From the IMG/VR virus record IMGVR_UViG_3300033997_000092, positions 186,001-250,000 of that record: a DNA stretch of 64,000 nucleotides, one strand, 5' to 3'. The notes beneath the pieces are model-generated. The model was not told where the DNA came from. It ran no database searches and saw only the letters and a program-made list of their open reading frames with translations. Shown piece by piece: positions 7,989-62,285 of the stretch. Position 1 is the stretch's first letter; every line of letters starts with the position of its first letter. Origin of the DNA: a virus. A program made the position numbers and the translations under genes.

Positions 7989-8528
7989 TTAAATAACGAA
8001 ATTGATTGTCATGTCCGGCATTTTAATCTGTTGGCCTACAACAACATTCAATTGAGACAGTTCAAGATCGGCTCCAGAATCAGCCAAGCCACAAGTACCG
8101 TGAATAATAAAATTCGTTTGGGCCGCAGCGGCTGTACTGTTTGTATAGTCTGAGTTACTAAAACATAGTGTAAAGCAACCAATCGTTCCAACTTGTGTCG
8201 CTTTGAACACATCAGCACGTTTAGAGAATGCCAAGATACGTTGCAGAGGATTATCGCCCAAGTAACGATCATCAAAGTTCAGGAATACCATACGTGCTAA
8301 CTCGGTCTTCCCGTAGCTAGGCATACCTGTAGTAGCATTGAACGGCCATGTACTGTTGATAACCGTACCAGAGCGATGTGATTCATACATAGCTGCGAGT
8401 TGTACATCAGACAATTCGCCTCCTGTCCACAGACTCACTATACAATGGTTATTATTGCCTAAATGAGTTTGGATAGGAGAAGTGAACTGGCCTAACATAA
8501 GGCTCTTGGCCGTAATTGCAAATTCCAT
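7989..8528 (-). CDS. Array protein, short family (A), 179 aa
   Basis: Last member in transcription order of a group of six short (163-182 aa) paralogues. It shows both family landmarks: an N-terminal strand-turn around residues 30-37 (IVSLWTGGELS, matching LYEGPELT and IYNGPMPT in sisters) and a C-terminal block GLADSGADLELSQL followed by GQQIKMPDMTINFVI, matching VGDIGSGSDLEVL and KIADFRVNI elsewhere. It has no catalytic motif, signal or membrane helix. Position in the tail block suggests a surface-exposed virion protein such as a receptor-binding subunit; this is inference. It follows its long (B) partner directly. Confidence 0.75.
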   Translation of the reverse strand: MEFAITAKSLMLGQFTSPIQTHLGNNNHCIVSLWTGGELSDVQLAAMYESHRSGTVINSTWPFNATTGMPSYGKTELARMVFLNFDDRYLGDNPLQRILAFSKRADVFKATQVGTIGCFTLCFSNSDYTNSTAAAAQTNFIIHGTCGLADSGADLELSQLNVVVGQQIKMPDMTINFVI

Positions 8529-8540
8529 ACTGGACTCCTA

Positions 8541-9686
8541 CTACGATACTTTGATTGGGAACGGATTCAGGAGTTTGGGAACGATGTTCTCTGTACTCAA
8601 GAATGTGGTACGGTTTAACTCAATTTTTCCAGGACCTGTGCCAACTTCCGCAAGAATCATAGGATAGTAACTTACATTGGGGCTGAACTTACTGTTCTTA
8701 TCCGTCGCATACGTCGGGAAGCTCGGTGAGTAAGGGGTAATTAATGCCCATGTCGGAGTAAACGAATTGTTTTGCGGTGAAGCTGCTTTACCTAAACCAA
8801 AATCACTTAGATATAACGCCATAGAGCTGCCTTCACTCAAGCTTCCAGTTGACCACGCACGTATCAAGAACTTCGATGCCGTTACAGGGGCGTTTAAAGG
8901 TACTACTATATACGAAGTGTGGTTACCGGTAGAATATGACATAATTCCTACACTGGTCCAAGCAGTATCTGCCTCATTCCTGTAGTAGAACTGAATGTTC
9001 ATCGTTCTTGCACCGCTGCTATGGCCGTTGTTCTGTCCACTAGGTGGATGAATTCTGATTATTATTCTATCTACAGTGATAGGACTCCTATACTCCATAG
9101 CACTGTATCTGTCATTAGCGCGTATATATGAATGACCACCCACATAAGCATAGAGTTCAGGAGAACCATCTAGTCCTGGTCTTGGATCTAACCTTCTAGC
9201 TACTGTATACGTAGCTATGGATATGTCTGAATCTAATATAGGACCCGAGCTTGTATTTCCGTATAGCCAATAGTCCATTGGAAATACTGCGATTGACGAA
9301 TCCATTGTTCCTGAGGACAGAGCGCCTCCGAATGTAGAAGCATTGAAGCTCGTTAATCCTGTAGGAAGGTTTCTCGGGTGGAATATAGTATTTAGTGAGA
9401 GTGCGTCTGTACCAGAATTTACTAAGTTAATCGTATCATTTGCTTCTACGGTAGTTGCCAATTCTGTACTATACGCAATAATACCTTTTGCATTGTATTG
9501 GAGTGCTTTAAGGCGTGTGCCTGTCTCTCCGGTTTGCTGGGAGTCATCCAAGAAAGGCACATTATCAATACTTGAAGGAACGGCACCATCGAACAGAAAA
9601 ATGTTACCGCCGTACGTAACAGAGCTAGTCGCCACATTTTGGCTTACCGCTCTCAGCAATCCGCCTTTAAGACCTATATGCTTCAT
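8541..9686 (-). CDS. Array protein, long family (B) with discoidin-like middle, 381 aa
   Basis: Largest member of the long (288-381 aa) paralogue family. Landmarks: IFLFDGAVP at residues 29-37 and a C-terminal TPTWALITP block, both shared with sisters. Between them, residues about 150-305 form a beta-rich segment resembling a discoidin (F5/8 type C) jelly roll: paired strands around VDRIIIRI, NIQFYYRN and SKFLIRAWSTGS. Such folds often bind sugars. ATG 9686 was chosen over a GTG at 9701 because GGAG lies nine bases before it. Likely a tail-surface adhesin or decoration; the function is inferred from context only. Confidence 0.75.
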   Translation of the reverse strand: MKHIGLKGGLLRAVSQNVATSSVTYGGNIFLFDGAVPSSIDNVPFLDDSQQTGETGTRLKALQYNAKGIIAYSTELATTVEANDTINLVNSGTDALSLNTIFHPRNLPTGLTSFNASTFGGALSSGTMDSSIAVFPMDYWLYGNTSSGPILDSDISIATYTVARRLDPRPGLDGSPELYAYVGGHSYIRANDRYSAMEYRSPITVDRIIIRIHPPSGQNNGHSSGARTMNIQFYYRNEADTAWTSVGIMSYSTGNHTSYIVVPLNAPVTASKFLIRAWSTGSLSEGSSMALYLSDFGLGKAASPQNNSFTPTWALITPYSPSFPTYATDKNSKFSPNVSYYPMILAEVGTGPGKIELNRTTFLSTENIVPKLLNPFPIKVS

Positions 9687-48875: not shown

Positions 48876-50072
48876 ATGAATTTTCAACAATCGAATCCTA
48901 TTATCATCGGCGGCGATACTGAATTCAATGAAGTAAACTGGCTCGATAACAGCTATATCATGGCAGCCGACCGTATTATGGTGGAAGGCGTTCGTAGTGG
49001 TAATCGCACAGGCGTAAACACTTACAAAGTATTCGGCCACTTTATCAATACTAACTTGATGGAAGGCTACCCTCTGCTTACAACAAAGCAAGTATTCACC
49101 CGTCCTATGTTCCATGAACTGATTTGGATGTTGAACGGTGAAACAAATATTCAATACTTGCTGGACAATGATGTACATATTTGGGACGGCTGGGCTAACA
49201 CTAACGGTGACTTAGGTCCTGTATACGGTGAACAGTGGCGTAATCGTGAAGACACTCAGATCCTGATGCGTAACGACCCGTACTACGAACAACGCCTGTC
49301 GTACTATGAAAGCAACGGCTACACAAACGTAGCTACCAACCCAACGCTGGATGTGTACAGCCGTCGCATTGACCAAATTCAGGTAGCATTGGATCGTTTA
49401 AAAACAAACCCAGACTGCCGCCGCATTATCGTAGATGCGTGGAATCCTGGTCTGCTGCCTACAGACGAGCATCCAACAAAACAAGCTGAACAGGGCCGTC
49501 AAGCATTACCTGCATGTCATGCGTTCTTCCAATTCGGCTCCAGTGAACATCATCGTAACGATATTACTATCGATGACTTAGGCATACTGAACATCTATCG
49601 TGTAGGCAACAAAGTCTATATGAGCGGTGTTGAAATTGATGTCCAGTTGTCTGATGTTGAGCAAATGGATGAAGTAGGTCTGTTGCAGCTTATCCGCCGC
49701 TACAAAGATAGCCGTGTTCCATTTAAGCGTATGTTAGATACTCACCTGCACTTGCGTAGTAGTGATGTGTTCTTGGGTCTGCCGTTTAATATCAGTTCCT
49801 ACGCTGCTTTGTCTGGTTTGTTCTGTGCTGTTCTTGGTATGATACCCCGCGGTCTGACACTCAGCTTTGGTGACATGCACATTTATAGCAACCACGTTGA
49901 GCCTTTGCAGAAGCAAGCGAATAACTTGGAAAACACTAAGTACCCACCAAAGCTTGTAACTATTGGTGTTGGTCCTGAGCAAAACGCCGATTTGAAGAAC
50001 CTCAGCATTGATTGTTTCCGTGTGTTGCAATACAGTCACTGTGGTAAAATCACAGCCGACGTGGCCGTGTAA
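48876..50072 (+). CDS. Thymidylate synthase-family enzyme with large insertions, 398 aa
   Basis: Converts dUMP to dTMP with methylene-tetrahydrofolate. Visible: R44-T-G (phosphate loop), LLTTK, FHELIWML, GPVYGEQWR, D180-C-R-R (phosphate arginines), catalytic C214 in ALPACHAFFQF, and R294-SSDVFLGLPFN305. N305 is the residue that selects dUMP over dCMP, so a dCMP hydroxymethylase is unlikely; a dUMP hydroxymethylase cannot be excluded. The gene is ~130 residues longer than usual. Extra segments lie near 125-160, near 195-210, and about 60 residues between the catalytic loop and the LHLRSSD strand. Confidence 0.92.
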   Translation: MNFQQSNPIIIGGDTEFNEVNWLDNSYIMAADRIMVEGVRSGNRTGVNTYKVFGHFINTNLMEGYPLLTTKQVFTRPMFHELIWMLNGETNIQYLLDNDVHIWDGWANTNGDLGPVYGEQWRNREDTQILMRNDPYYEQRLSYYESNGYTNVATNPTLDVYSRRIDQIQVALDRLKTNPDCRRIIVDAWNPGLLPTDEHPTKQAEQGRQALPACHAFFQFGSSEHHRNDITIDDLGILNIYRVGNKVYMSGVEIDVQLSDVEQMDEVGLLQLIRRYKDSRVPFKRMLDTHLHLRSSDVFLGLPFNISSYAALSGLFCAVLGMIPRGLTLSFGDMHIYSNHVEPLQKQANNLENTKYPPKLVTIGVGPEQNADLKNLSIDCFRVLQYSHCGKITADVAV

Positions 50073-50081
50073 GGTACAACT

Positions 50082-50882
50082 ATGGAACAGTTAAAAACAT
50101 CATTTGATTTTGTTGAAGATGACCAAAGGCCTGTAACACAGGTTGTAGCTGATTGGACAGACTTAATTGCAAAGTCCGTTAAAGAAGACCTTGTTGTGCT
50201 GCATGAAGGTCAGTGGTTCGACCCAAATATCATGGCAACTGCCGATGAATACACTATGCACATCCTGGTACTTACAGGCAAGCTGTGGCCAACGCACGTA
50301 ATTGTCAACCATGTGTCTGTTAAAGCAGATTCAGACGAAGACAGTGCTTGGAAAGACACGGCACCTGCTCCTGTACTCCACAATGAGCTTAGCTGGTTAC
50401 GTGGTATTTTGCCTACGCTGCGTGGTAACGTCAAGTCCCGTGTCCGTTGTAGTTTACGTGCGTTAGAACTTGCGTTACCTCACATCAATAAAGGCAACTA
50501 CATTCTGCAACGTGAATTCTTTGCCGAGGTAGGTCGCCTTACTCGTTTGGTTATCAATTGGAAGAATAAACAGGGTAATTACAACGATGTACTGAAACAG
50601 CGTTTCCTATATCTCGATGCAGCTATGCAGAAGTTAACTGGTAAATCGGCTGACCGTATGCGTATGTCCTTGTACTATGCCCACGACCAGAAGCACAAAG
50701 CTGTTGTTGGTCGCGCAGTAAAAGCTTGGATTGAAGGTGGCCTCAATCAACCACTTTGGTTTCCTCCTGCAGGAACTGATAAAGGTAAGTTGAACAGTGA
50801 CGGAACCATCGACGTATCGTTCAGATTCAATCCTGATTATGGAAAAATAACAGATGTCGAAACAGATGCTGGTTCAAGCTAA
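50082..50882 (+). CDS. Unknown protein, 266 aa
   Basis: No family recognised. The first ~80 residues are mixed alpha/beta. A conserved-looking helical centre (ELSWLRGILPTLRGNVKSRVRCSLRALELALPHINKG) is rich in R and L, and the C-terminus has aromatic strands (GLNQPLWFPPAG, VSFRFNPDYG). The end overlaps the next gene by 29 bases. Possibly nucleic-acid binding because of the basic central helix, but no motif proves this. Follows thymidylate synthase by nine bases. Confidence 0.72.
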   Translation: MEQLKTSFDFVEDDQRPVTQVVADWTDLIAKSVKEDLVVLHEGQWFDPNIMATADEYTMHILVLTGKLWPTHVIVNHVSVKADSDEDSAWKDTAPAPVLHNELSWLRGILPTLRGNVKSRVRCSLRALELALPHINKGNYILQREFFAEVGRLTRLVINWKNKQGNYNDVLKQRFLYLDAAMQKLTGKSADRMRMSLYYAHDQKHKAVVGRAVKAWIEGGLNQPLWFPPAGTDKGKLNSDGTIDVSFRFNPDYGKITDVETDAGSS

Positions 50883-51282
50883 ATCTAAGGCCTTTCTCCA
50901 CAGAGTGGTCAAAAGCAAGTTTATTGAAGTTGCCGATAAAGCAGCAGAGGATATTCTTACACGGCGCGCTTATGCCTATATTATATCCTATTCACCGAAG
51001 CTTGAACCAACAAGTGGTTACATGACGTTAGTTCACATTCTATCTGTCATACGTCCAGGTAACATTCCAAAACCAGGAACTTTACCTACAGGTGAATACA
51101 GTTTCGTATTAGATTCAGTTGTAGTGTCCTTGAACGAGGCTGGCAAGGCTCGTATGGCCAAGTTTGGCATTGTTTCATTCAAGGACGAAGACTACGACCT
51201 AGAAGATTTTGTCGAAGCCGTATCTTTGACAGGCAACTTGGAAAACATTGATGATAAGTCTGACGAACAAAGCTCAGCTTAA
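50854..51282 (+). CDS. Unknown small basic/acidic protein, 142 aa
   Basis: Starts 29 bases inside the upstream gene with a GGA-type ribosome site. N-terminal half basic (KQMLVQAKSKAFLHRVVKSK) and C-terminal tail acidic (DEDYDLEDFVEAVSL ... DDKSDEQSSA). A central segment (GYMTLVHILSVIRPGNIPKPG) is hydrophobic but too short and broken for a membrane helix. No known family. The start of the following gene lies inside its last codons. Confidence 0.68.
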   Translation: MSKQMLVQAKSKAFLHRVVKSKFIEVADKAAEDILTRRAYAYIISYSPKLEPTSGYMTLVHILSVIRPGNIPKPGTLPTGEYSFVLDSVVVSLNEAGKARMAKFGIVSFKDEDYDLEDFVEAVSLTGNLENIDDKSDEQSSA

Positions 51283-52123
51283 ATTGATGAAGAAGAGGTC
51301 GTATGCTTCGGTTGAAGAAATCTCTGACTTAACTGGACAGACACTGACAACCGAAGCCTACTGCGACGATGTCCCTGATTTGGATGCTACCGTTCTAGTG
51401 TGTCCAAAGGGGGATCGTCTGCGCCCACGTTACTTCGGAATCTTTTCAGCTAGAAAGAACATTAAAGGTGACTACGTTATTTCTGTTGAGCAGGCCCTTA
51501 GTCGGATGAATGCCGATAGCTTCAATTTGATATTTGCCAAGCCGGCAATACAATCAAGCGAACGCGACAGGCTCCTAACTCTATATGAGAAACAATTAAG
51601 GGCGCATGAAAAACATGCCAATGGGAAAGGACTTGGAGTACCTATACCAAAAGCCAGCCCAGAAGAAATAATGAAAGCAATGGAAGAACTTGAAGAACGT
51701 CCTGACGCTAACTATGGCAGATGTACAATCATTTCTCCTAACATGCTACAGCAGCCAGACAAACTGCGTCTGCTGTTTGAGACAATAAAATTGCCTTTTA
51801 ATTGGGGCCGTTCCTATTTTATGACGCCCTCAATTTACCGTGAGTTTTTGTGTAAGAACATCAAGTGGATATTAGAGACTATGGATATTTCCATACGTCA
51901 TTACGATGGCCGTCCTTGTGTACGCATAAAGAAAATGCACAGCAAGATATTCGCAGGTTATATTCATTCGATGTGCGAGAATAACCGAAAGCAAGTAGTC
52001 TTGTCTGGTAAAGAAATATGCCAAGTCATATCAAATACCTGGGGCATCGATTGCAGGCTTCCTGAAATTGAATCTCTTTGGTCAGTGTCTGTGATCAAAC
52101 GAACAAAGAAAAAGAAGGATTGA
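51251..52123 (+). CDS. Unknown basic protein, 290 aa
   Basis: The ATG at 51251, within the preceding gene and behind GGAAA, was chosen; an internal ATG at 51287 has no ribosome site. The N-terminus is basic (KAQLKLMKKRSYASVEEISDLTG), with SVEEISDLTG looking like a short helix-turn-helix-type element, and the C-terminus ends in KRTKKKKD. Cys, Trp and basic residues cluster in the second half (SIRHYDGRPCVRIKKMHSKIF). DNA or RNA binding is plausible but no family was recognised. The next gene starts three bases after the stop. Confidence 0.7.
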   Translation: MISLTNKAQLKLMKKRSYASVEEISDLTGQTLTTEAYCDDVPDLDATVLVCPKGDRLRPRYFGIFSARKNIKGDYVISVEQALSRMNADSFNLIFAKPAIQSSERDRLLTLYEKQLRAHEKHANGKGLGVPIPKASPEEIMKAMEELEERPDANYGRCTIISPNMLQQPDKLRLLFETIKLPFNWGRSYFMTPSIYREFLCKNIKWILETMDISIRHYDGRPCVRIKKMHSKIFAGYIHSMCENNRKQVVLSGKEICQVISNTWGIDCRLPEIESLWSVSVIKRTKKKKD

Positions 52124-52126
52124 ACT

Positions 52127-52759
52127 ATGATGTCTCCAAACATAGATGAAGAATATTACTCGTTGAACGATGATGTTAAACAGCGCGTTATCAAACGTCT
52201 GCAGGTCGTTGCAGGTAAAACATTGGACGTTGTTATTTCTGAAGACAATGTTGAAATTCTGGCTTCACTGATATTCCAGCAGACGCATCCTATCCGCATG
52301 TTAGGTGCTTTGTCCGCTTTAGGCTGTGGTGATTTACAATCACTGGCTGTGTCAGGTTTCTTTGATTTACGTGACGCTACTCTGGAAAAGTTACGCGCGA
52401 ATTTAGGTAAACGTGTTTCGTTCTCTCCTATCGAAGAAATACGTGGTGTGCCACGCTCATACATTACTTTCCATGACGTGGAACATACTGTAACGCTGAC
52501 GCGGTTCGCATTTGGTAACTGTCCGTGGTGGGATCCTGACACAATTGTCATGGCGCACGACGGTCTTTTGTTGTGGGTATCGTCAGAAGACTTAGCTGCC
52601 GATAAAGAAAACCACAAAGGCATCGACTATACAATCGTCGGTGACGTTCACCACATCCGTGGAACAAAAATGCTGTACGATCAGCAGAACAAACTAACTG
52701 TGAATCCAGTCACGCTGAATGCGTATGGTGTATTCAATGTTCGTGGAGATACCGAATGA
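52127..52759 (+). CDS. Unknown protein, 210 aa
   Basis: No family recognised. Helical N-terminal half (DDVKQRVIKRLQVVAGKTLDV ... HPIRMLGALSALGCGDLQSLA) and beta-rich C-terminal half (HTVTLTRFAFGNCPWWDPDTIVMAHDGLLLWV). Two start ATGs lie side by side at 52127 and 52130 behind AAGGA. Its stop overlaps the next gene's start (ATGA). No membrane segment. Confidence 0.7.
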   Translation: MMSPNIDEEYYSLNDDVKQRVIKRLQVVAGKTLDVVISEDNVEILASLIFQQTHPIRMLGALSALGCGDLQSLAVSGFFDLRDATLEKLRANLGKRVSFSPIEEIRGVPRSYITFHDVEHTVTLTRFAFGNCPWWDPDTIVMAHDGLLLWVSSEDLAADKENHKGIDYTIVGDVHHIRGTKMLYDQQNKLTVNPVTLNAYGVFNVRGDTE

Positions 52760-53220
52760 ATATTATGGAACATGCCCTGCTTGCAACAGTAGTCCTTTAC
52801 ATTGTGTTGGCTCTGGCACTGTTTGGTTTCGTTACACTGTACTTCCTTTTCTACTACAGAAAAGCACTGTATCACATTCTCGCCAGTTACCAGTATTTCA
52901 GTAGTCCTGAGCATTCGCGTGGTTACACAGGTAACACTGAATTCAAAATGTCTTACAGGACACTGTACGCTCTGTATAAAGCCTTTTCCCAGTTAGCTGA
53001 TGAAGGCTTGCCGTGGACAATGTGTCCTAAGTGCAGCACTAAAACGCATGAAATGAAAGAACCGTTTAACATGCGTGAACATCCGAGTAAGCAATCTAGC
53101 CTGTACATCAAAACATGCGGGTCATGTAAACACGAATCTACTTGGACATTTGGACCAGGTATTTGGATTCATGTACCAGATGTGTGGCATGACAAAGAGG
53201 AAAGCAAAAATGAAAACTAA
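52756..53220 (+). CDS. Membrane protein with zinc-ribbon-like cysteine pairs, 154 aa
   Basis: One N-terminal membrane helix (about residues 8-32, LLATVVLYIVLALALFGFVTLYFLF) is followed by a soluble part containing C90-PK-C93 and C121-GS-C124, the spacing of a zinc ribbon. With this topology the ribbon would probably be cytoplasmic. No family was recognised. The start overlaps the upstream stop by ATGA, and the stop overlaps the next gene. Could be an envelope-tethered regulator or inhibitor; this is inference. Confidence 0.72.
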   Translation: MNIMEHALLATVVLYIVLALALFGFVTLYFLFYYRKALYHILASYQYFSSPEHSRGYTGNTEFKMSYRTLYALYKAFSQLADEGLPWTMCPKCSTKTHEMKEPFNMREHPSKQSSLYIKTCGSCKHESTWTFGPGIWIHVPDVWHDKEESKNEN

Positions 53221-53551
53221 AATCCTGATAGTCGATCCCTTCCGTGACTACGAATTCCCATTTGTTAACACGGACACACTATTGTTGATTCAAAACAAGC
53301 GCCCTGTTAAGCTAATGTCCAGCGGCTTCTTTGGAACTGTGATTATCAACGACATGGCTCTACGCGAACTATGTCCTCAGATGGTTCAGTTTTTAATTGA
53401 TTGTTGTACGCATACAATCAACAATTGTGCCTATGCTGGCGATGTTGACTTCCAGATTTTCTTAGCTGGTAAGCTGGAGTACCAATCTAAGTTCTCGCTG
53501 CTGGAAGAAAAGCTACGTGAGTTGATTAAACCAGAGAACCATCAGGAGTAG
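53210..53551 (+). CDS. Unknown small protein, 113 aa
   Basis: ATG 53210 follows GAGGAAAG and overlaps the upstream stop by 11 bases; a longer frame starting inside that gene has no ribosome site. The fold looks alpha/beta: strand ILIVDPF, strand DTLLLIQNK, strand GTVIINDMAL, then helices with three cysteines (LCPQ, IDCCTHTINNC) and an E/K/L-rich helix at the end. No known family. Confidence 0.68.
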   Translation: MKTKILIVDPFRDYEFPFVNTDTLLLIQNKRPVKLMSSGFFGTVIINDMALRELCPQMVQFLIDCCTHTINNCAYAGDVDFQIFLAGKLEYQSKFSLLEEKLRELIKPENHQE

Positions 53552-53553
53552 CT

Positions 53554-54339
53554 ATGCACACTATACAACCTACAACAACATTATTAGATATAGCTGTTCC
53601 AGTTTATTCATTACGTGGACTACAGCAAGTTGACTTTGGTATGGTAGGAGCCTATTTGGATTCTATCACTCGTGGTGATATAACGGCAGCACTGGTAATC
53701 TTTGCCTCAAAATACCCAACTGATACAAATCCAGAAGAACCAATCTACGTTCCTTTAGTATCAGTTTATGATGTGGCAACAGACACGTTGAACTATACAC
53801 GTTTGCCTGAGTCCGTTGACTCTATGCCAATACCTGCGGCAACTCCTGACTCAAGTAACACGCACATAAAGGTTCCTGGGATTCCTGGCGTGTTTCGTAA
53901 AGATGTTCTTACTACCAAACGCTTTAACCATCGCCACAATATGTTCAGGCGTTCTACAAAAGGTATTTTGAACTTCCAAAACAAACACTTTACCTCTATG
54001 TACAGTCGGACCGATTTAGAAAATCTCCGCAGTATGGACGCATTGCCTAGCTGGGCTACGCATGTTTATACACCTGGCTCACAGGATGCACGTATTGGGT
54101 CTCCTTATGACCGCATCTATCGCTTGGCGACATACAGGTTTGTCGGTGAAACTCAGGAAACTGGTGAGAATAAGCTGGTGTATTTCCAACAAGAGCCAGT
54201 ACCATCGTTCTATACGGCCAATGCACAAGCCGCTGAAATACTGAAAACACGGTCTGCTAAAGTAATGACTATTGTTCCGCAGGACAGCAAGATAATCTGG
54301 ACGTTGGACTCTTTCTTTAATCCATTGAGTTGCCTATGA
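53554..54339 (+). CDS. Unknown protein, 261 aa
   Basis: No family recognised. Beta-rich with many P, T and Y residues. A basic, aromatic middle (TTKRFNHRHNMFRRSTKGILNFQNKHFTSMYSR) may contact nucleic acid or form a surface. AGGAG precedes ATG 53554. The end overlaps the next gene's start (ATGA). No signal or membrane segment. Confidence 0.68.
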   Translation: MHTIQPTTTLLDIAVPVYSLRGLQQVDFGMVGAYLDSITRGDITAALVIFASKYPTDTNPEEPIYVPLVSVYDVATDTLNYTRLPESVDSMPIPAATPDSSNTHIKVPGIPGVFRKDVLTTKRFNHRHNMFRRSTKGILNFQNKHFTSMYSRTDLENLRSMDALPSWATHVYTPGSQDARIGSPYDRIYRLATYRFVGETQETGENKLVYFQQEPVPSFYTANAQAAEILKTRSAKVMTIVPQDSKIIWTLDSFFNPLSCL

Positions 54340-54761
54340 AACGACTGGTAAAGATGCTACTACACTGTCCTGATGTTCTCCCTATGACATTGCTTGGTCC
54401 TACTTCATGTCTGTCAGAAATACATGCGCTGTGCGGAAAGACACATAACGAACACGGACTACATCAGGTACCTGATATTTTCAGCGCAGCGAACTTCAAT
54501 GTTGAACTTTACCGCAACTCGTTTGGTATAAAGTGGGACGCAGAAGGTAAACCTTTCAACGAAGTTAAGTGTGTTATCGAAATAGGCGATGCCAACGTAG
54601 CCGATCCTAGTGATTACAGCTACGTGCATATTAATGAAAGGACCACTGTAGAAAACAAGCACCTACTCAGGTATGTCAATCATGGATCAAACACATCCAG
54701 AATTCCTGGAATTGGTTTCTTCAGCCCTTACTATTGTTATTTAGGTACTTCAATAGGATGA
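54336..54761 (+). CDS. Unknown small protein, 141 aa
   Basis: Start placed at ATG 54336, overlapping the upstream stop by ATGA; a TTG two codons earlier is less likely. The first ~20 residues are basic and hydrophobic (MKRLVKMLLHCPDVLPMTLL) and could be a weak signal or membrane-associated segment, but the proline and cysteine content makes this unsure. The rest is beta-prone with scattered cysteines. No family recognised. Overlaps the next gene by ATGA. Confidence 0.65.
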   Translation: MKRLVKMLLHCPDVLPMTLLGPTSCLSEIHALCGKTHNEHGLHQVPDIFSAANFNVELYRNSFGIKWDAEGKPFNEVKCVIEIGDANVADPSDYSYVHINERTTVENKHLLRYVNHGSNTSRIPGIGFFSPYYCYLGTSIG

Positions 54762-55021
54762 ATTTGTCAAAACTAACCAAAGCAATCCGCTTTGAAACCC
54801 AGGCGGATAAGTTACTGAAAACTTGGGACAGACGTTATGAAGAAGGCTGCACTTACGCATATCAGCGGGTATGTGAGGCTGGACCTGACATGACCCAAGT
54901 AAATCAAGTCATACAAGAGTTGGAGCTGAATATTGCTCTGTCTGACTTAGGTGGCCAGAAGACAAGTGCTTTCGATGAAGGCGTGTTGGCTTATATTCGT
55001 AGTTATCGTTTAGCGAGGTAA
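54758..55021 (+). CDS. Unknown small helical protein, 87 aa
   Basis: ATG 54758 overlaps the upstream stop (ATGA). Mostly helical and charged (LTKAIRFETQADKLLKTWDRRYEEGC, IQELELNIALSDLGG), no membrane segment. An earlier in-frame ATG at 54734 is less plausible because the frame would start inside the neighbour without a ribosome site. Function unknown. Confidence 0.65.
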   Translation: MNLSKLTKAIRFETQADKLLKTWDRRYEEGCTYAYQRVCEAGPDMTQVNQVIQELELNIALSDLGGQKTSAFDEGVLAYIRSYRLAR

Positions 55022-55023
55022 GT

Positions 55024-55146
55024 ATGTCAGGTAAAGATGATTTAGATTTAGATAGCTTCGACGAACTGGAAGTTCCAGACGTTGATATTGAAAACAATCA
55101 GCCTGCGGAAGACGAAGGTTGTGAAGGCGGCGCTTGTAAAATCTAA
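55024..55146 (+). CDS. Very acidic 40-residue protein
   Basis: Begins two bases after the upstream stop with GAGG nearby and ends ten bases before the next start. The first three quarters are D/E-rich (KDDLDLDSFDELEVPDVDIE). The end, EGCEGGACKI, carries two cysteines in a C-x4-C arrangement. The strict fit between neighbours and the ribosome sites on both sides support a real gene. A highly acidic mini-protein could mimic DNA or bind a basic host protein; this is speculation. Confidence 0.6.
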   Translation: MSGKDDLDLDSFDELEVPDVDIENNQPAEDEGCEGGACKI

Positions 55147-55155
55147 GGAGATTTC

Positions 55156-55599
55156 ATGGCAAATTTCAACAAACAGGCAGCAACTGTTGTCAGTGGCTTC
55201 CCTGGAATCGGCAAATCACACTTCTTTAATCGCCAACAAGAATTAGGTCTGAAGGTGATGGACAGCGACAGTTCAAAATTCCCAAAAGACAACTTTCCAC
55301 AGAACTACATGCAACACATTGGTGAGGCTATGTATCAGTGCGACTACTTGTTGGTAAGTTCACATGATGCGGTACGCCGTGCTTTGGTAGATGCGGGTAT
55401 AGTTTATACATTGGTCTATCCGCATATTTCACTGAAAGATGAATATATGCGTCGGTATAAGGAGCGCGGTTCTCCTCAGCCGTTCTTAGATCTAATGGAA
55501 AAGAACTGGGACAGTTTTGTTACTGGTTGTATTAACCAAACAGGCTGCAAGCATGTTGTGCTTCAAGCTGGCCAATATATGTCTGACGTAATAGGGTAG
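55156..55599 (+). CDS. P-loop NTPase, small nucleotide kinase-like, 147 aa
   Basis: Walker A motif G14-FPGIGKS21 after the strand TVVSGF, then DSDSS at residues 36-40, which may bind the substrate or metal as in nucleoside/nucleotide kinases. A strand YLLVSSH follows (the Walker B position), and basic residues in RRYKERG suit a lid. Size and layout fit small phage kinases acting on nucleotides or polynucleotide ends, but the substrate cannot be told. AAGGAG precedes ATG 55156. Confidence 0.75.
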   Translation: MANFNKQAATVVSGFPGIGKSHFFNRQQELGLKVMDSDSSKFPKDNFPQNYMQHIGEAMYQCDYLLVSSHDAVRRALVDAGIVYTLVYPHISLKDEYMRRYKERGSPQPFLDLMEKNWDSFVTGCINQTGCKHVVLQAGQYMSDVIG

Positions 55600-55603
55600 G
55601 CTT

Positions 55604-56320
55604 ATGCTCAGTGAACTGTTAAAATACCTACAGCAAAACACATCGTTGGCCATGCTGCCTGCGTGGTCTGAAGATCTTATGTATATGTCTAGTGAAGATT
55701 CTGATCACTTGCAGCGTACAGCAACCAGTGCTATGATGGAAACGTATAAGCTTTTGACTAATGCACTTCCACGTGTGTTCAGCAAAAGTATTGCATTATC
55801 TCAGGCACCAAACGAAAACACCCGTGTCACGTTTGACGTACTGAACGGTTGTGTTGAAGACTACACGGACATGATAAAGACTACATTTATCGCTCGTGGT
55901 CAACCGATAGTTGATTACATGGTTGCATCTATCCGCAATCAGGTTACAGATTTTGAAATGACTGTCAACTGTTTTATTTTAACTTATACAACTGTTGGTC
56001 CATTACTTAATCTAATCCGTACAGGACAATCTATTGAACTTGCCTTGTCTGTTTTAGAGTGTTTACCTTCGCACGATAATGAAAATGGACCAATATACTG
56101 TCCTGTACTGCCTCCAGGGCCAATAGAACTCTATGACTTAGTTGCTACAAGGCGTGGTTTTACTGTAGGCCAACGGGTTACAGAAATTGTTTCAAGGTAC
56201 GATTGCTTGGTAGCGCAATCAGGCAACAAAGAAATGTCACTTTACTGGGAAGCTTTGAAAAACTTACCAGGCAACAAAAAAGTTCTGGGGTCATTAGGCT
56301 ATGAAAACAACTGCAGGTGA
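55604..56320 (+). CDS. Unknown protein, 238 aa
   Basis: No family recognised. Almost entirely helical with a long hydrophobic-polar central stretch (DFEMTVNCFILTYTTVGPLLNLI) that is borderline for a membrane segment. A proline loop (CPVLPPGPIELYDL) separates it from a C-terminal helical part. The end overlaps the protease gene by 20 bases. Encoded between a kinase-like protein and a probable cysteine protease. Confidence 0.68.
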   Translation: MLSELLKYLQQNTSLAMLPAWSEDLMYMSSEDSDHLQRTATSAMMETYKLLTNALPRVFSKSIALSQAPNENTRVTFDVLNGCVEDYTDMIKTTFIARGQPIVDYMVASIRNQVTDFEMTVNCFILTYTTVGPLLNLIRTGQSIELALSVLECLPSHDNENGPIYCPVLPPGPIELYDLVATRRGFTVGQRVTEIVSRYDCLVAQSGNKEMSLYWEALKNLPGNKKVLGSLGYENNCR

Positions 56321-56999
56321 GTTGCGTAAACGCGGCTTCAATATTCCAGACAATATACCTGACTGCGCTACTACAGAACTCAACGGATACGGAGTTGGTA
56401 CTGTGTCAGCAGGCCATGACAATTCCCTTCAGGTAGACTTGCTTGCCAACTTGGGTCCTTTCGAGTGGGTATCGGCTACTGTTGTTGCTAAAGGTCCAGA
56501 CAAGATAACGCTTGACAAAACTCTATGGCCAGCTCCTCTGACTTTAGATCATGTCCAGCAGCGCACTCCAACAGAATGCCTGTCTGCCTGTATCGCTATG
56601 ATAACGCGCATACCTATTGACCGCGTAGTTGCGGACTTCCATGAGCGTTATAGGCGAGACTGGACTGTAAATGTATCTACATACTTCAACGAAATTGGTT
56701 TGAAGCATACGGTGCGTTCTGCTGTCGACCGTGTCATTGAAGAAGGCTTTGTGTATACAGCCCGTGTGTCTTCGCTGAATAATATCGGCGGCGGCCATGC
56801 TGTTGTAATACATAATTGCCCGGATGCTGGTTTCACTGTTTACGACCCAAACAAAGGTCGTCCTGATACCCGCTATTATGAGTTTGTTAAAACAGACGAT
56901 CCACTGTCTGAAACATTAACGTCCTACATTACTACAACCCAAATAGCTGAGCAGGATTTGCGTGTGTTCTGGGCAGCACAACAGGAGAAAATAGAATGA
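56301..56999 (+). CDS. Papain-fold (C39-like) cysteine protease candidate, 232 aa
   Basis: The C-terminal domain (about residues 80-200) shows the catalytic order of C39-like peptidases: Q87 ahead of C93 (QQRTPTECLSACIAM), H166 in NIGGGHAVVIHN and D182 in VYDPNKG. The ~75-residue N-terminal part is a separate unknown domain. It has no signal peptide or transporter part, so it is not a bacteriocin exporter; it may process phage or host proteins, or be a ubiquitin-like-protein or defence-targeting hydrolase. Its stop overlaps the start of the Acb2/Tad1-like gene (ATGA), so they are likely made together. Confidence 0.68.
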   Translation: MKTTAGELRKRGFNIPDNIPDCATTELNGYGVGTVSAGHDNSLQVDLLANLGPFEWVSATVVAKGPDKITLDKTLWPAPLTLDHVQQRTPTECLSACIAMITRIPIDRVVADFHERYRRDWTVNVSTYFNEIGLKHTVRSAVDRVIEEGFVYTARVSSLNNIGGGHAVVIHNCPDAGFTVYDPNKGRPDTRYYEFVKTDDPLSETLTSYITTTQIAEQDLRVFWAAQQEKIE

Positions 57000-58051
57000 G
57001 TCATTCTGGTCGTATCGAAAATGCGTTGACTAAGCTTAATGCGCTTGGTTGGACGTGTGAAGTCCACAACTTCAAAATTCCACAGTTCAGTATGCACGTT
57101 GACTATGATAACAAGCGTCTGGCAATCAACTGTCCGAAAGCATATCATACAGCGCAGATGCTGGACCACGTACACGATATTACTACTGTTGAAACTGAAT
57201 CTTTAAGTGGTCAGAAGTGTGTTGTTCGTGGCGCTTATGTTTATAGCTTTGTTGGTCTGGAAGTCTTTGAATACACTTCTCCAAACTCAGGCGACCATAA
57301 AGCATTTGCTAATCTGGTTCTTACTGGAATGCCACGCAGCATGTACACAGGTGAGTTTTTTCCTGAATCAGAAGACCGTGCTGTAATGCACATTGAAGTC
57401 GAAGGCGATGTCAATATCCAGACTCTGGACGCTGTCGTAGCTGCCGTACAGAACGCAACAGGTTATGTTCGTGAGAAGCCAACTATTCCAGGTCGCTACA
57501 ATGTTCGCCACATTGCTAAAGAAGGTCAACCTGAGTTTATCGGTGAAGAAGTTAACGTCTGGTTAGTTGAAGGCGTCCCTTACGTTGACTTAGACCCAGA
57601 CGGTAGCTGTCCAGTGTCCAGCGTACACGACGGTTTAGAATGGCAATTGATTGAAAAAGCAGACAGCCCTGTTGCTGAAGACGTTCAGGTATCTGTTTGT
57701 GTTCGCCGTTCAGACAGCACAATCGTTACAGCCGACGATGCTCCTGGTAATGGTGGTGCACACCACGAATACAGTATCTCGACAGTACACGATCCTGAAC
57801 TCAACTCCTCGTTTAAGATTGCAGTTTTGCGATTCCAGAATGGCGGAGTAGCAGAAGTCGGTGTTAACGGTATTCAGATTGAAGACCTGTTAGCTATGAG
57901 CGCACATCGTCTGGAGTGTTTCCAAGCAGGTCCGTTTGCCTGTATTCAAAATCAATCAGCGCTGGAAAGCATTAAACATGCACTTGCTACATTAGACGCA
58001 CGTACTGCTGACCGCAAGGCTCGTAATGTAGAAGGCAAACAAGTAGTCTAA
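56996..58051 (+). CDS. Multidomain protein ending in an Acb2/Tad1-type domain (candidate anti-defence sponge), 351 aa
   Basis: Residues about 256-347 match the Acb2/Tad1 pattern: HHEYSIS, then RFQNGGVAEVGVNGIQIEDLL (279-299), HRLECFQAGPFAC (304-316), N319, ALESIKHALATL, RTADR (336-340) and VEG (345-347). In phages this hairpin domain forms oligomers that soak up signalling cyclic nucleotides of CBASS or the ADP-ribose signals of Thoeris. The N-terminal ~100 residues are an unknown alpha/beta domain, and about 158-222 a small beta domain (GRYNVRHI ... GLEWQLI). Free-standing sponges are only ~100-130 residues, so the extra domains are unusual. A terminator follows. Confidence 0.72.
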   Translation: MSHSGRIENALTKLNALGWTCEVHNFKIPQFSMHVDYDNKRLAINCPKAYHTAQMLDHVHDITTVETESLSGQKCVVRGAYVYSFVGLEVFEYTSPNSGDHKAFANLVLTGMPRSMYTGEFFPESEDRAVMHIEVEGDVNIQTLDAVVAAVQNATGYVREKPTIPGRYNVRHIAKEGQPEFIGEEVNVWLVEGVPYVDLDPDGSCPVSSVHDGLEWQLIEKADSPVAEDVQVSVCVRRSDSTIVTADDAPGNGGAHHEYSISTVHDPELNSSFKIAVLRFQNGGVAEVGVNGIQIEDLLAMSAHRLECFQAGPFACIQNQSALESIKHALATLDARTADRKARNVEGKQVV

Positions 58052-58055
58052 CCGT

Positions 58056-58087
58056 AAGAGGGAGCAATTTGCTCCCTCTTTTCGTTT
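58056..58087 (+). terminator. Rho-independent terminator
   Basis: AAGAGGGAGCA and TGCTCCCTCTT make an 11-bp perfect stem with a 3-base loop, followed by TTCGTTT. It starts four bases after the Acb2/Tad1-like stop codon and ends the long operon that begins after 47815. Confidence 0.9.
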
Positions 58088-58103
58088 CTATGGTTCAGAG
58101 TCA

Positions 58104-58180
58104 TTATCTCTGTTATCCGTAGCAAAAACAGGACACTATAAAACCGACTGTTTTGAGCTATAGTTATCTCTGTTATCCGT
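58104..58180 (+). repeat. Duplicated 17-bp element upstream of a promoter
   Basis: TTATCTCTGTTATCCGT occurs at 58104-58120 and again at 58164-58180, exactly 60 bases apart, each followed by a GCA and A-rich sequence. The second copy ends 15 bases before the -35 box. Between them, ACTATA and TATAGT form an inverted repeat. The layout suggests regulator-binding sites or duplicated promoter parts. Confidence 0.7.
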
Positions 58181-58195
58181 TGCATAAATAGGCTA

Positions 58196-58225
58196 TTGAC
58201 ACCCACCCATATACTCTGCTATAAT
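58196..58225 (+). promoter_or_regulatory. Consensus sigma-70 promoter
   Basis: TTGACA (58196-58201) and TATAAT (58220-58225) are both perfect consensus boxes, separated by 18 bases. Transcription would start about 58232 and read into the gene at 58258. It is the clearest host-type promoter in the window, suited to early expression of the genes to the right. Confidence 0.88.
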
Positions 58226-58257
58226 AAGCCCATACGTTGAACAGGAGAAAGCATATT

Positions 58258-58551
58258 ATGCTGCCTATACAGATAGCTACTGCAATCGTGATAAACAACA
58301 ACGTACACCGCGCAATATCAGGCGTTAACAGAACACGTTTGGGTATTGGAGCTGGTGGCTTTGTTGAACACCGAATCGTTCTTACTCCGCTCGGTCAGAA
58401 GTGCATGGACTTAGTGAAGCAGGACAGAGAGGCAATGCGTTCGGTTATTTACCAACAGCGTGTTGCTGAATTGAAAGCGCGTGGTATTACAAGACCGGGC
58501 GATATTATGAAATATACATACGATATGTTTGGAGGAAAAGTAAGATGGTAA
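58258..58551 (+). CDS. Unknown small basic protein, first gene after the consensus promoter, 97 aa
   Basis: ATG 58258 follows AGGAGA; a TTG seven codons earlier would lie on the ribosome site and is rejected. Basic and helical C-terminal half (LVKQDREAMRSVIYQQRVAELKARG), beta-prone start (IQIATAIVINNNVHRAI). As the first gene behind a strong early-type promoter it may take part in host takeover; no family was recognised. The stop overlaps the next start (ATGGTAA). Confidence 0.68.
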   Translation: MLPIQIATAIVINNNVHRAISGVNRTRLGIGAGGFVEHRIVLTPLGQKCMDLVKQDREAMRSVIYQQRVAELKARGITRPGDIMKYTYDMFGGKVRW

Positions 58552-58991
58552 ACTCAAAAGATCTGAAAGCTGGTTCATTAATCGAAGCACAGTTCAACGA
58601 CGGTCCGAATCGTTCAGGTATCGTAACTGAACTCATACACCAGAAAGGAGCAAAAACTGAAGGTGAACTGTTCGGACTACGCGCCTTGTTTTATATGGAG
58701 GAGTTTAAAGCACACTGGAATATTTCTATTGAAACTTCTCAGGTAGTGTTTGTTGCTCCTACGCAGCCGGATTTACCTGCGTTACTTGACGAAGCCAAAC
58801 AAGCTGTAATGCGCTGGACATGCACTATCGACGGCGAAGAATCTGTGCCACTGAGCTTTGCTTCTATGACAATGCCAGAAGACGGCTTCAACCTAAGCAA
58901 AGAAGAAGCGGACAAACTAAAGTCGATGCAAGTCGGCGATAGTTTCGTTGCTGGTGATGAAGGTCAAGCACTGATTAAACGTGTAGCCTGA
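58545..58991 (+). CDS. Unknown protein, 148 aa
   Basis: Overlaps the upstream stop by seven bases, with GGAGG upstream. Starts with a small beta part (LKAGSLIEAQFNDGPNRSGIVTELI), resembling an SH3-like barrel in spacing, and continues with an acidic helical C-terminus (LSKEEADKLKSMQVGDSFVAGDEGQALI). No known family. An intergenic hairpin follows 11 bases after the stop. Confidence 0.68.
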   Translation: MVNSKDLKAGSLIEAQFNDGPNRSGIVTELIHQKGAKTEGELFGLRALFYMEEFKAHWNISIETSQVVFVAPTQPDLPALLDEAKQAVMRWTCTIDGEESVPLSFASMTMPEDGFNLSKEEADKLKSMQVGDSFVAGDEGQALIKRVA

Positions 58992-59002
58992 GTTTGATAT
59001 TA

Positions 59003-59026
59003 GTAGGCATTCCACAGAGTGCCTGC
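59003..59026 (+). repeat. Intergenic hairpin element, copy 1
   Basis: AGGCA and TGCCT pair around the 10-base loop TTCCACAGAG, preceded by ATTAGT. First of three similar hairpins (see 60069 and 61857) placed between genes in the same operon. No T-run follows, so it is not a standard terminator. Confidence 0.6.
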
Positions 59027-59057
59027 ACTATATGATTCTCAACACAAGGAAAACATT

Positions 59058-59492
59058 ATGTTCGATAACCAAAGCAAAGAAGTAAAATCAATCGCTACAC
59101 GTTTGGCAAAAATCACCAAGCCTCAAATGGCACTTGAACGTATGGCTCAGATTCTAAAAAGCAAAGGCATTAATGGTTATCCGCGTATAGGCCATTATGT
59201 ACCAGACATCGGATTTATGATTCCATCCACTGTTCCTGGTTCTGAGTACATAACTGTACCTCTTGTGCCGAAAGTACACGAACACATCAAAGGCCTTATG
59301 GAGAATCACAAAGGCTTCATTGTGTTGCGCCACAGACCCTTTTCTCTATTAGCTGGGGTTGCTTACCGTTCATCTGATGCGGTCATTGATGAACATGGTG
59401 TAGTACATACAGATAAACTTACATTCAACTGTGAGCGAGTAATGACACTCAGCTTAAACTTAGGCCCACGTTCTTCAAACGGAGATTTATAA
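59058..59492 (+). CDS. Unknown protein, 144 aa
   Basis: Start at ATG 59058 behind AAGGAAAAC; an upstream in-frame ATG at 59019 lies in the hairpin and is rejected. Basic N-terminal helices (VKSIATRLAKITKPQMALERMAQILKSKG) followed by beta-rich sequence (YITVPLVPKV, GFIVLRHRPFSLL). No family recognised. The stop overlaps the next start as TAATG. Confidence 0.68.
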   Translation: MFDNQSKEVKSIATRLAKITKPQMALERMAQILKSKGINGYPRIGHYVPDIGFMIPSTVPGSEYITVPLVPKVHEHIKGLMENHKGFIVLRHRPFSLLAGVAYRSSDAVIDEHGVVHTDKLTFNCERVMTLSLNLGPRSSNGDL

Positions 59493-60061
59493 TGTCAGAT
59501 GCACCAGCAAAATTTTTACCTGTTAAAGGTCGCGTATACACAACTAGCCAGATCGACAATGCGTTGGATCTACGAGACAGTCCTCATTTAGGTTTCTACA
59601 ACATCGACAAGGTAAAGGATGTTGTTCAGGATAGTCATTTGGCTGTCAATCTCAGCACTCTGCCTGGCTGGAAGGACCTGCGCTGGATATTTATTCGTGA
59701 AACACACGAATGGATTCCAATCTTCCAGATCGTGGAAGAAGATGAACCGAAGCTGTTAAAGCTGCTTCGGGAAAGCGATACTGAAGGTGAAGACGAAGAA
59801 GCCGTGTACTACCCACACATACCAGAGGGATTTGATGAAAAGGGCAGACCAGTTAAACCTGTGCATGTTCCTAAGACGTACACGTTGTACGATAAAGAAC
59901 GGCATGTAGACACCGAAGAATCTCGTGGTCCGTTCAACTTACTGTCTCTGATTCACACCACTGATTGGTCTGACGAGGAGTTTGACAAAATCACCGATTT
60001 GACTGTTGGTCAAGTCGTTGAATTTGCCGAAGGTCGTCTGGTAGTAACTCGCGTGAGTTAA
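59492..60061 (+). CDS. Unknown acidic protein, 189 aa
   Basis: GGAG precedes ATG 59492, which overlaps the upstream stop by one base. Mixed fold with a strongly acidic middle (EEDEPKLLKLLRESDTEGEDEEAV) and a proline/histidine-rich stretch (PHIPEGFDEKGRPVKPVHVPKTY). A final V-V-E-F-A-E-G-R-L-V-V-T-R-V strand closes it. No family recognised. Followed by the second intergenic hairpin. Confidence 0.68.
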   Translation: MSDAPAKFLPVKGRVYTTSQIDNALDLRDSPHLGFYNIDKVKDVVQDSHLAVNLSTLPGWKDLRWIFIRETHEWIPIFQIVEEDEPKLLKLLRESDTEGEDEEAVYYPHIPEGFDEKGRPVKPVHVPKTYTLYDKERHVDTEESRGPFNLLSLIHTTDWSDEEFDKITDLTVGQVVEFAEGRLVVTRVS

Positions 60062-60068
60062 GATTACT

Positions 60069-60094
60069 AATGGGCATTGTGTTCAGTGTCCATT
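60069..60094 (+). repeat. Intergenic hairpin element, copy 2
   Basis: AATGGGCA and TGTCCATT form an 8-bp stem (one G-U pair) around the 10-base loop TTGTGTTCAG. It follows ATTACT as in copy 3, and the loop begins TT and ends AG as in the other copies. Confidence 0.65.
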
Positions 60095-60122
60095 GTTAAT
60101 ACTCAAACAAAGGTAACAGGAT

Positions 60123-61271
60123 ATGCTACAACATTTTATAGTCTGCTTGATAGCAGGCTTCTTTATGTCGTTCTCGCGTTGGTTCAAACACAAAGATGCA
60201 CCAGTTGACCCAAATGTACCAAAACACAGGCGGCCCCGACTAGAGGTAGTCAACTTTGAGAAGATAACACTCAAGGAATTTGGTATAAGCGCAATAGGCA
60301 ATGTGTTTGTTGCTGCATTCAGTATGATATTCTTCTTCATCTACTTGACTACAGCCGCATCCGACTTTGAGATTTTGAATGGCCGTGTAACAGACAAACA
60401 GCGTGATGAAGTCAGTTGTAGCCATTCATACTCCTGCCCGCCTTGCCGTGACGTATGTACAAAACGCAGTGACGGAAGTAGGAGTTGTACACGGGAATGT
60501 TCAACGTGTTATAAACATCGTTATGATGTGGACTGGGATGTGTTTACTACAGTAGGTACATTCACTATATCGCGTGGTCCTAACAATGAACAGGGATTAG
60601 ATATGCCTCCGTACTGGGCGTCTTTACAAATAGGTGACCCAGCCTCGGCAGAACATACTTATGAAAACTTTTTGCTTATCGGCCAGAACAGCCTGAACTT
60701 CAAAGCCGAAAGTGTTGAAGAACGATTTGCAGGTTCGTTACACAAATACCCTGAAGTGTACAACTACTTTGATTATAACCGTGTACTCAACACAACCAAA
60801 GCAGGAACAAGCTGGCTCAATGATAAACTCAATCGTTGGTTATCTGTCAAAGGCAGTCAGAAGCAGCTCAACATCATATACGTGTTGACTGAACAGAACC
60901 CTGAATACTTCTATGCCTTAATGTCGAAGTGGTCTGGCGGTAAAAAGAACGACTTGATTATAGTGATTGGTATGGACAACACAGGAAAAGAGATTCTTTG
61001 GTTCAATGCAAACACGTACGGTAAAGGCATGAACAACCGCGAACTACTGACCGAACTGAAGTTTGCTTCTGTTGGTAAGCCGTTTGACGTAAGCTTGGTA
61101 GACAAGCATTTGGAATTAGTAGATGAAAAGTTTGTGCGTTTACCTGCAGAAACTTTCGCTCAGAAGAAATCTGAAGTTCAGATACCGCTGTGGTTCTCGC
61201 TTATCATGGCATCCTTAAATATGTTAGTTAGCTATTTCATTTCACGTAAAATGAGGGAAGTAAATTTATGA
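60123..61271 (+). CDS. Membrane protein with central cysteine cluster, 382 aa
   Basis: Hydrophobic segments near residues 3-16, 57-80 (AIGNVFVAAFSMIFFFIYLTT) and 355-373 (LWFSLIMASLNMLVSYFIS). The ~270-residue domain between the second and third begins with seven cysteines (99, 105, 108, 112, 122, 126, 129) in CxxC and CxxxC spacings, suited to zinc or disulfides. It continues with alpha/beta sequence (LNIIYVLTEQNPEYF, DLIIVIGMDNTGKEIL) that recalls TPM-type membrane-associated domains. No firm family. The stop overlaps the LemA-like gene's start (ATGA), implying a two-protein membrane unit. Confidence 0.75.
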   Translation: MLQHFIVCLIAGFFMSFSRWFKHKDAPVDPNVPKHRRPRLEVVNFEKITLKEFGISAIGNVFVAAFSMIFFFIYLTTAASDFEILNGRVTDKQRDEVSCSHSYSCPPCRDVCTKRSDGSRSCTRECSTCYKHRYDVDWDVFTTVGTFTISRGPNNEQGLDMPPYWASLQIGDPASAEHTYENFLLIGQNSLNFKAESVEERFAGSLHKYPEVYNYFDYNRVLNTTKAGTSWLNDKLNRWLSVKGSQKQLNIIYVLTEQNPEYFYALMSKWSGGKKNDLIIVIGMDNTGKEILWFNANTYGKGMNNRELLTELKFASVGKPFDVSLVDKHLELVDEKFVRLPAETFAQKKSEVQIPLWFSLIMASLNMLVSYFISRKMREVNL

Positions 61272-61849
61272 AAACGCAAAAAGGTTCGGCTCTGGGTATT
61301 ATTCTGGGTGTGTTGGGTTTATTGTTTTTGGTTGTTGCTCTGATTGCAGCAATTTTCTTTCACTACAAAGACAGAGGCTCCGACTTCCAGGTCAAAATCG
61401 GTTCATCTTACCGTCTGGCTCAATCTTCATTGAGTAAGTACACACTCAAGATGCAGGATTTGAAGGGCCTGAAGAATATGGACACGCAGGCACTGAAGGA
61501 TCTGTTAACTTCATCCAACACTTCACGTTACGGTGCAGACGGTTCTCAGGCTGCGGTACAGTGGTTGAAAGAAAACAACATTCCTGTCAACAACGAACTG
61601 GTAACAAAAATGGCTGTGTTGATTGACTCAGGCCGTGACGAATACGGTGTACAGCAGGAAAACTTAAATGCCGACTGTACCACATTCAAATATGAACTGG
61701 GTCGTAGCTGGAGCGGTCTGTGGTATTCAATCGCTGGTCGTCCTGATGAAAGCAACAAAAAAGAATTCAGCCTGTCTATGTGTGACCTGGTTCTGGATGC
61801 TGCTACAGTAGAAGCATACGAAACCAAACAAGCGAAGTCCGTGTTCTAA
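61268..61849 (+). CDS. LemA-like membrane-anchored protein, 193 aa
   Basis: N-terminal membrane helix (about residues 9-31, LGIILGVLGLLFLVVALIAAIFF) followed by a helical soluble part (DFQVKIGSSYRLAQSSLSKYTLKMQDLKGLKNM), in the manner of LemA proteins: one anchor and a four-helix bundle. The match is by layout and weak pattern. LemA proteins in bacteria and phages often sit beside TPM-type membrane proteins, which fits the upstream gene. Translation is coupled through ATGA. Possible role at the host membrane during infection; unproven. Confidence 0.65.
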   Translation: MKTQKGSALGIILGVLGLLFLVVALIAAIFFHYKDRGSDFQVKIGSSYRLAQSSLSKYTLKMQDLKGLKNMDTQALKDLLTSSNTSRYGADGSQAAVQWLKENNIPVNNELVTKMAVLIDSGRDEYGVQQENLNADCTTFKYELGRSWSGLWYSIAGRPDESNKKEFSLSMCDLVLDAATVEAYETKQAKSVF

Positions 61850-61856
61850 CATTACT

Positions 61857-61882
61857 AATAGGCATTCATAGTAGTGCCTATT
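61857..61882 (+). repeat. Intergenic hairpin element, copy 3
   Basis: AATAGGCA and TGCCTATT form a perfect 8-bp stem with the 10-base loop TTCATAGTAG, preceded by ATTACT and followed by GTTGAT. Closest to copy 2 in its flanks (ATTACTAAT...ATTGTT). Confidence 0.68.
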
Positions 61883-61910
61883 GTTGATGAACGAAAAAGG
61901 AAAACTAATC

Positions 61911-62285
61911 ATGTTAGTAGATGCAAAGAAACTCAAAGCAGTAAAATTCTTGTCGATGCTGGACCAACTATACATTGACATTCTTGGTGCAGAGCCGAAT
62001 ACTATGGAACCAAACTCTCTGGTAGTGTTCACGCAGTTTGCCGACTTAATAGATGACAATACGGAACAAAACATCCGTAACTTGTTTGAAGGCACGATTG
62101 ACCTTGCGTGGACAATACAAGAAAACAGAACATCGGTTCCGTTTTATTCGCAGGGCATTGCTGTATTCATTATCTATTTACTTAAACGTCACTGCAACCG
62201 TTTGAAAGCAGACTGGCCATTAGAGTGGCGTTTGCTTTCAGCCGTCGCTACAAACATCGGCGTATCATTGCGCGAAGGCGACTAA
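61911..62285 (+). CDS. Unknown helical protein, 124 aa
   Basis: ATG 61911 follows AAAAAGGAAA; a longer frame from 61881 begins in the hairpin and is rejected. Largely helical, with W and L-rich helices (VFIIYLLKRHCNRLKADWPLEWRLLSAVATNIG). Hydrophobic stretches are short and amphipathic, so it is probably soluble. No family recognised. Confidence 0.68.
   Translation: MLVDAKKLKAVKFLSMLDQLYIDILGAEPNTMEPNSLVVFTQFADLIDDNTEQNIRNLFEGTIDLAWTIQENRTSVPFYSQGIAVFIIYLLKRHCNRLKADWPLEWRLLSAVATNIGVSLREGD

Follow-up and report, generated by a model that had tools for sequence, protein, structure and literature searches.

Can a sponge for host immune signals work when it forms the end of a much longer protein? 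This question is raised by one open reading frame (ORF) of the window, the 64,000-nt stretch analysed here, which comprises bases 186001-250000 of an IMG/VR virus record of 261,032 bases. Few known anti-defence proteins act as broadly as Tad1 (Thoeris anti-defence 1) sponges. Taking fold, ligands and fusion origin together, we put at roughly 70% the probability that this ORF encodes a functional Tad1 sponge with a novel domain architecture.

The printed sequence confirms the ORF with its ATG start, and it is present as a single copy across the 261-kb phage record (Table 1). Among the genes of the window are those for a T4-like baseplate protein (phrog_219), tail proteins, thymidylate synthase and RNase H, and its gene order is shared with the Pseudomonas jumbo phage Lu11; megablast of window bases 50000-62000 against the phage collection finds no near relative. 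The fused ORF and the gene upstream of it, whose product shows a weak, sub-threshold similarity to peptidase C39, are probably co-translated. Because a terminator-like hairpin directly follows its stop codon, the fused ORF is probably the last of its transcription unit. A short distance past this hairpin, a perfect sigma-70 promoter (58196-58225; TTGACA-18-TATAAT with extended TG, 12/12) stands ahead of the next genes. Upstream of that promoter lies an exact 17-bp direct repeat, TTATCTCTGTTATCCGT (58104-58120 and 58164-58180), which has no further copy elsewhere in the window and could be a regulator site.

Table 1. The fused ORF, its parts and its flanking features (window positions)
Feature	Position	Strand	Remarks
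Upstream gene	56301..56999	+	phrog_4049 (E 5e-30); 4-nt overlap (ATGA) with the start of the fused ORF
Whole ORF	56996..58051	+	351 aa; N-domain, beta insert and Tad1 domain
N-domain	56996..57340	+	residues 1 to about 115; stand-alone relatives in Lu11, HRDY3, Peetri, YerA41 and L023-L027
T6 run	57356..57361	+	just ahead of the domain junction; a run of five T would bring the frame to a stop at TAA 57384-57386
Residues 126-158	57371..57469	+	matches by eye the extension at the start of the separate Tad1 gene in L024: HIEVEGDVNIQTLDAVVAAVQ vs FIAVDGEVTAEKITQAMEDYD
Latent TAATG	57384..57388	+	+1-frame stop that overlaps the Met131 ATG of the window frame; close to where L024 has its gene boundary; weak ribosome site
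Extra beta-rich segment	57470..57673	+	residues about 159-226; secondary structure predicted, low confidence
Tad1-type Acb2/Tad1 domain	57695..58048	+	residues 234-351
Intrinsic-terminator-like hairpin	58056..58080	+	11 pairs, directly 3' of the ORF stop codon

The C-terminal Tad1 domain

The initial annotation read the C-terminal end of the protein as an Acb2/Tad1 domain preceded by additional sequence, and phmmer, phrog_2428 and Foldseek agree with this placement. The phrog_2428 family matches residues 239-349 (E 8.7e-28), and phmmer against PDB sequences gives E values of 1.4e-12 to CmTad1 (8kbb), 3.3e-12 to CbTad1 (7uav) and 1.2e-10 to phiKZ gp184, with no Acb2-proper chain among the matches even at E 10. 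Pfam, NCBIfam and PADLOC yield no usable family for the fused protein, although the name 'Acb2/Tad1 hairpin domain' exists in UniProt. The motifs from which the domain was first read are all present (FQNGG 280-284, GVNG 289-292, HRLECFQAGPFAC 304-316, N319, RTADR 336-340 and NVEG 344-347). Moreover, the window protein keeps 22/22 columns that are invariant among 25 Tad1-domain sequences, including F280, Q281, E287, R305, F309, Q310, N319, R336, R340, E346 and G347. In the phmmer alignment, F309, N319, R336 and R340 correspond to F82, N92, R109 and R113 of CbTad1 (a one-residue numbering offset allowed), which we take to be ligand-contact or pocket positions.

The AF2 monomer model (25 sequences) contains strands 234-238, 242-246, 258-263 and 274-279 followed by a hairpin of two long helices (295-311 and 317-342), with pLDDT in this block reaching 97 in the helices. 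A four-strand antiparallel beta-sheet with two long C-terminal helices is the Tad1 fold. Because the Tad1 beta-sheet precedes the helical hairpin, the domain begins at about residue 234; its C-terminal location holds as first proposed, but its confinement to the last ~95 residues (256-351) does not. All PDB chains that Foldseek returns at E<1e-3 are Tad1 (20 chains, probability 1.00); by target, their TM-scores are low (0.42-0.47), which may reflect poorly modelled parts within the whole-chain alignment. Structures were predicted with split alignments, and the combined alignments A5 and A6, which placed N-domain rows on the Tad1 region, were discarded.

The solved Tad1 proteins (CbTad1 7uav/7uaw/8smd and CmTad1 8kbb-8kbd) are homologous to the window domain at E about 1e-12, adopt the same fold of a beta-sheet and two helices and share all of its family-invariant residues. 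However, their chains of 123-138 aa have no extra domains, whereas ~230 residues precede the domain in the window protein. Acb2 (PaP2 and T4 vs.4 type) belongs to the same superfamily by its helical hairpin, but has a short N-terminal helix in place of the beta-sheet (PMC12043709), whereas a sheet precedes the hairpin in the AF2 model of the window protein. The domain is Tad1-type within the Acb2/Tad1 superfamily. No Tad2 is found in records G000 or G001, the latter being the record of L024, described below.

The N-domain, its unfused relatives and the join

The remainder of the protein had been described as two unknown domains, which still fits the middle segment but not the N-domain, for which relatives are found. 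For the middle segment, no family is matched in Pfam, PHROG or the PDB, and its best phage matches are at E 5 or worse. In a tblastn search with residues 1-225, residues 7-105 match Peetri (2e-4), YerA41 (7e-4) and Lu11 and HRDY3 (about 0.06), and the similarity to the Lu11-type family covers the GW...P-F...VDYD...N..KA region. A profile search of IMG/VR adds five loci (L023-L027), and all N-domain relatives are stand-alone proteins of 136-229 aa. The family has no Pfam, PHROG or PDB match, and no catalytic signature was found in the N-domain. In Lu11, HRDY3 and L025 the N-domain gene is flanked by thymidylate synthase on one side and a P-loop gene on the other, with no adjoining Tad1 gene, and the Lu11 record has no Tad1 gene anywhere. 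The P-loop protein itself (phrog_4182; window 55156-55599 and Lu11 gp227, L021:4344-4772), conserved near the N-domain gene, is kept across Lu11-like jumbo phages without an assigned function.

Two of the IMG/VR loci, L023 (IMG/VR 3300024308_000027) and L024 (record G001; IMG/VR 3300033997_000243), are the closest relatives of the window Tad1 half and among the closest for the N-domain. In both, the N-domain precedes the Tad1 domain, as it does in the window, but the two are encoded by separate genes and the beta segment of residues 159-226 is missing. In L024, the N-domain gene (8001-8438, 145 aa) and the Tad1 gene (8435-8896, 153 aa) overlap by 4 nt (ATGA), and L023 has the same overlapping arrangement. 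BLAST of the window ORF against L024 matches residues 1-113 to the first gene (35%, E 9e-15) and residues 223-348 to the second (53%, E 2e-34). The beta segment has no counterpart in L024, and residues 126-158, aligned by eye with the extension of the L024 Tad1 gene, give no significant BLAST match to it. In a maximum-likelihood tree, the window Tad1 domain groups with L023/L024 (support 91/78) and stands apart from Burkholderia phage FLC9 and the phiKZ group; support for the deep nodes is weak.

These comparisons suggest an origin in which a Tad1 gene came to lie directly behind an older jumbo-phage N-domain gene with a few-base overlap, as in L023/L024; in the window lineage, the two genes would then have become one reading frame and gained a beta segment of ~70 residues between them. 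Since the T6 run is followed by the latent TAATG (Table 1), a one-base indel could have made the fusion, and the run raises the unlikely alternative that the window encodes two proteins, as L024 does, and that the single ORF results from one extra T, be it an error of sequencing or assembly, a recent mutation or the work of a slippage site. If one T were removed, the N-domain protein would be 129 aa long and would end at a TAA that overlaps the Met131 ATG (TAATG), near the homologous L024 boundary, which is also a 4-nt overlap; in addition, A6/T6 runs occur in 0/7 large ORFs checked (19380-44463). However, the window frame scores as coding across the whole junction, and the eight codons between the T6 run and the ATG fit phage codon usage better in the window frame (+4.1 nats) than in the +1 frame (-0.2). 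The Met131 ATG lacks a good ribosome site, which most window genes have, and unbroken ORFs of 789-1546 aa in the same window indicate that indel errors are rare. The beta insert, missing from L024, indicates that the region has been altered in other ways too. A true single protein is very probable.

Distribution and partners of Tad1 domains

Tad1 domains were found in 137 phage records by tblastn, in 166 encoding stretches of IMG/VR (80 kept) and at 25 loci in GTDB genomes; these scans key on conserved peptides, so that their counts are a sample. Most Tad1-domain proteins have 105-160 aa. Counted as residues ahead of the match, the N-terminal extension is longest, among confident matches, in the window protein (240); FLC9 gp131 (235) and the phiKZ group (about 80-120) come next. 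The view that known sponges are short and single-domain is contradicted by phiKZ gp184 (230 aa) and by FLC9 gp131, and long Tad1 proteins are not unique to the window. What was already known is the long Tad1 of phiKZ, and what is new is the fused architecture of N-domain and Tad1 in the window, which occurs in one phage only among those found.

Like the window protein, gp131 of the jumbo phage FLC9 (338 aa) has a C-terminal Tad1 domain behind about 230 residues, but its N-terminal domain is a cyclophilin-type peptidyl-prolyl isomerase (PF00160, E 2.5e-44). In the FLC9 record, the gene (L004:5344-6360) is annotated solely as a hypothetical protein. The jumbo-phage proteins phiKZ gp184 and PhiPA3 gp217 (phrog_22140, phrog_23843) likewise carry Tad1 at the C-terminus behind an N-terminal extension, but this part is shorter, partly acidic and unrelated to that of the window; phrog_22140 and 8y6v_I match the window protein at residues 275-348 only. 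Because the tree separates the window domain from FLC9 and the phiKZ group, the fusions in these three appear to be independent. A further candidate is the 233-aa ORF of L066/L068 over the match at 3001-3321, with 120 residues before the Tad1 match; its N-terminal segment of ~100 residues, which has no Pfam family, is possibly a small beta-barrel.

Other apparent extensions were set aside. Those of L139 and L140 are chance partial matches, and those of 60-140 aa in L054, L061, L079, L092, L104 and L124 were not counted as fusions because they appear to be in-frame DNA upstream of the real start codon. In phage HPP-Temi (L014), a Tad1-domain gene at 2647-3231 is missed in the record; it lies on the strand opposite to the annotation, and an annotated 1095-base ORF on the opposite strand spans most of it.

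Proposed function and alternatives

We propose that the C-terminal ~118 residues fold as a Tad1 protomer, with the beta-sheet and the two long antiparallel helices, and that such protomers very likely form a hexamer, which in Tad1 consists of three dimers; the binding sites and the oligomer of Tad1 are summarised in PMC12043709. The assembly would very likely sequester glycocyclic ADP-ribose, the Thoeris signal, and the cyclic di- and trinucleotides that are CBASS signals, so that the host effectors would stay off. The N-domain would most likely sit outside the sponge, as a co-expressed partner or a tether, presumably placed like the N-terminal parts of phiKZ gp184 and the cyclophilin of FLC9 gp131. 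This role is a guess because the AF2 model of the N-domain is unreliable (pLDDT about 40).

phiKZ offers a comparison for a sponge with an N-terminal extension. gp184, which has the same domain, is a virion protein that is injected and that interacts with proteins of the inner body (PMC10449902). A review from 2026 describes a Tad1 that phiKZ injects and that blocks CBASS/Thoeris, the sole anti-defence protein described in jumbo phages (PMC13282480). We infer from sequence that gp184 is the Tad1 meant there, and the phiKZ case suggests, by this analogy, that a Tad1 sponge can work despite an N-terminal extension. The window protein could, by the same comparison, be a virion protein delivered with the DNA, with its sponge active from the first minute of infection, and the homologues in Lactococcus phage 1706 and Bacillus phage P59 carry an annotation as structural proteins. 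We consider this quite unlikely, since the N-terminal part of the window protein has no similarity to that of gp184 and the gene, with a terminator at its end, belongs to a cluster of small genes, among them thymidylate synthase, RNase H and P-loop genes; members of the N-domain family adjoin metabolic genes in Lu11 and HRDY3.

It is very unlikely that through the fused N-domain the sponge acquires a second activity or a destination that depends on the bound signal; if it did, the phage would be exploiting an alarm nucleotide of the host to position or switch one of its own proteins. The idea that the Tad1 domain is a ligand-gated sensor instead of a plain sponge, with the bound immune signal altering the action of the N-domain, would fit the different N-terminal fusions in separate lineages (window, FLC9, L066/L068 and the phiKZ group) as uses of a reusable ligand-binding module, but it is very unlikely, since the N-domain occurs without Tad1 in Lu11 and others and has no catalytic signature, and plain sequestration accounts for the conserved pocket residues.

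We found no discussion of the varied N-terminal partners of Tad1 in the accessible sponge literature. The examples of the window, FLC9, phiKZ gp184 and L066/L068 suggest that N-terminal partners of various kinds are tolerated by the Tad1 domain and may even benefit it. The fused lineage and its unfused relatives form a natural pair in which any effect of the fusion on location, timing or ligand choice can be compared.
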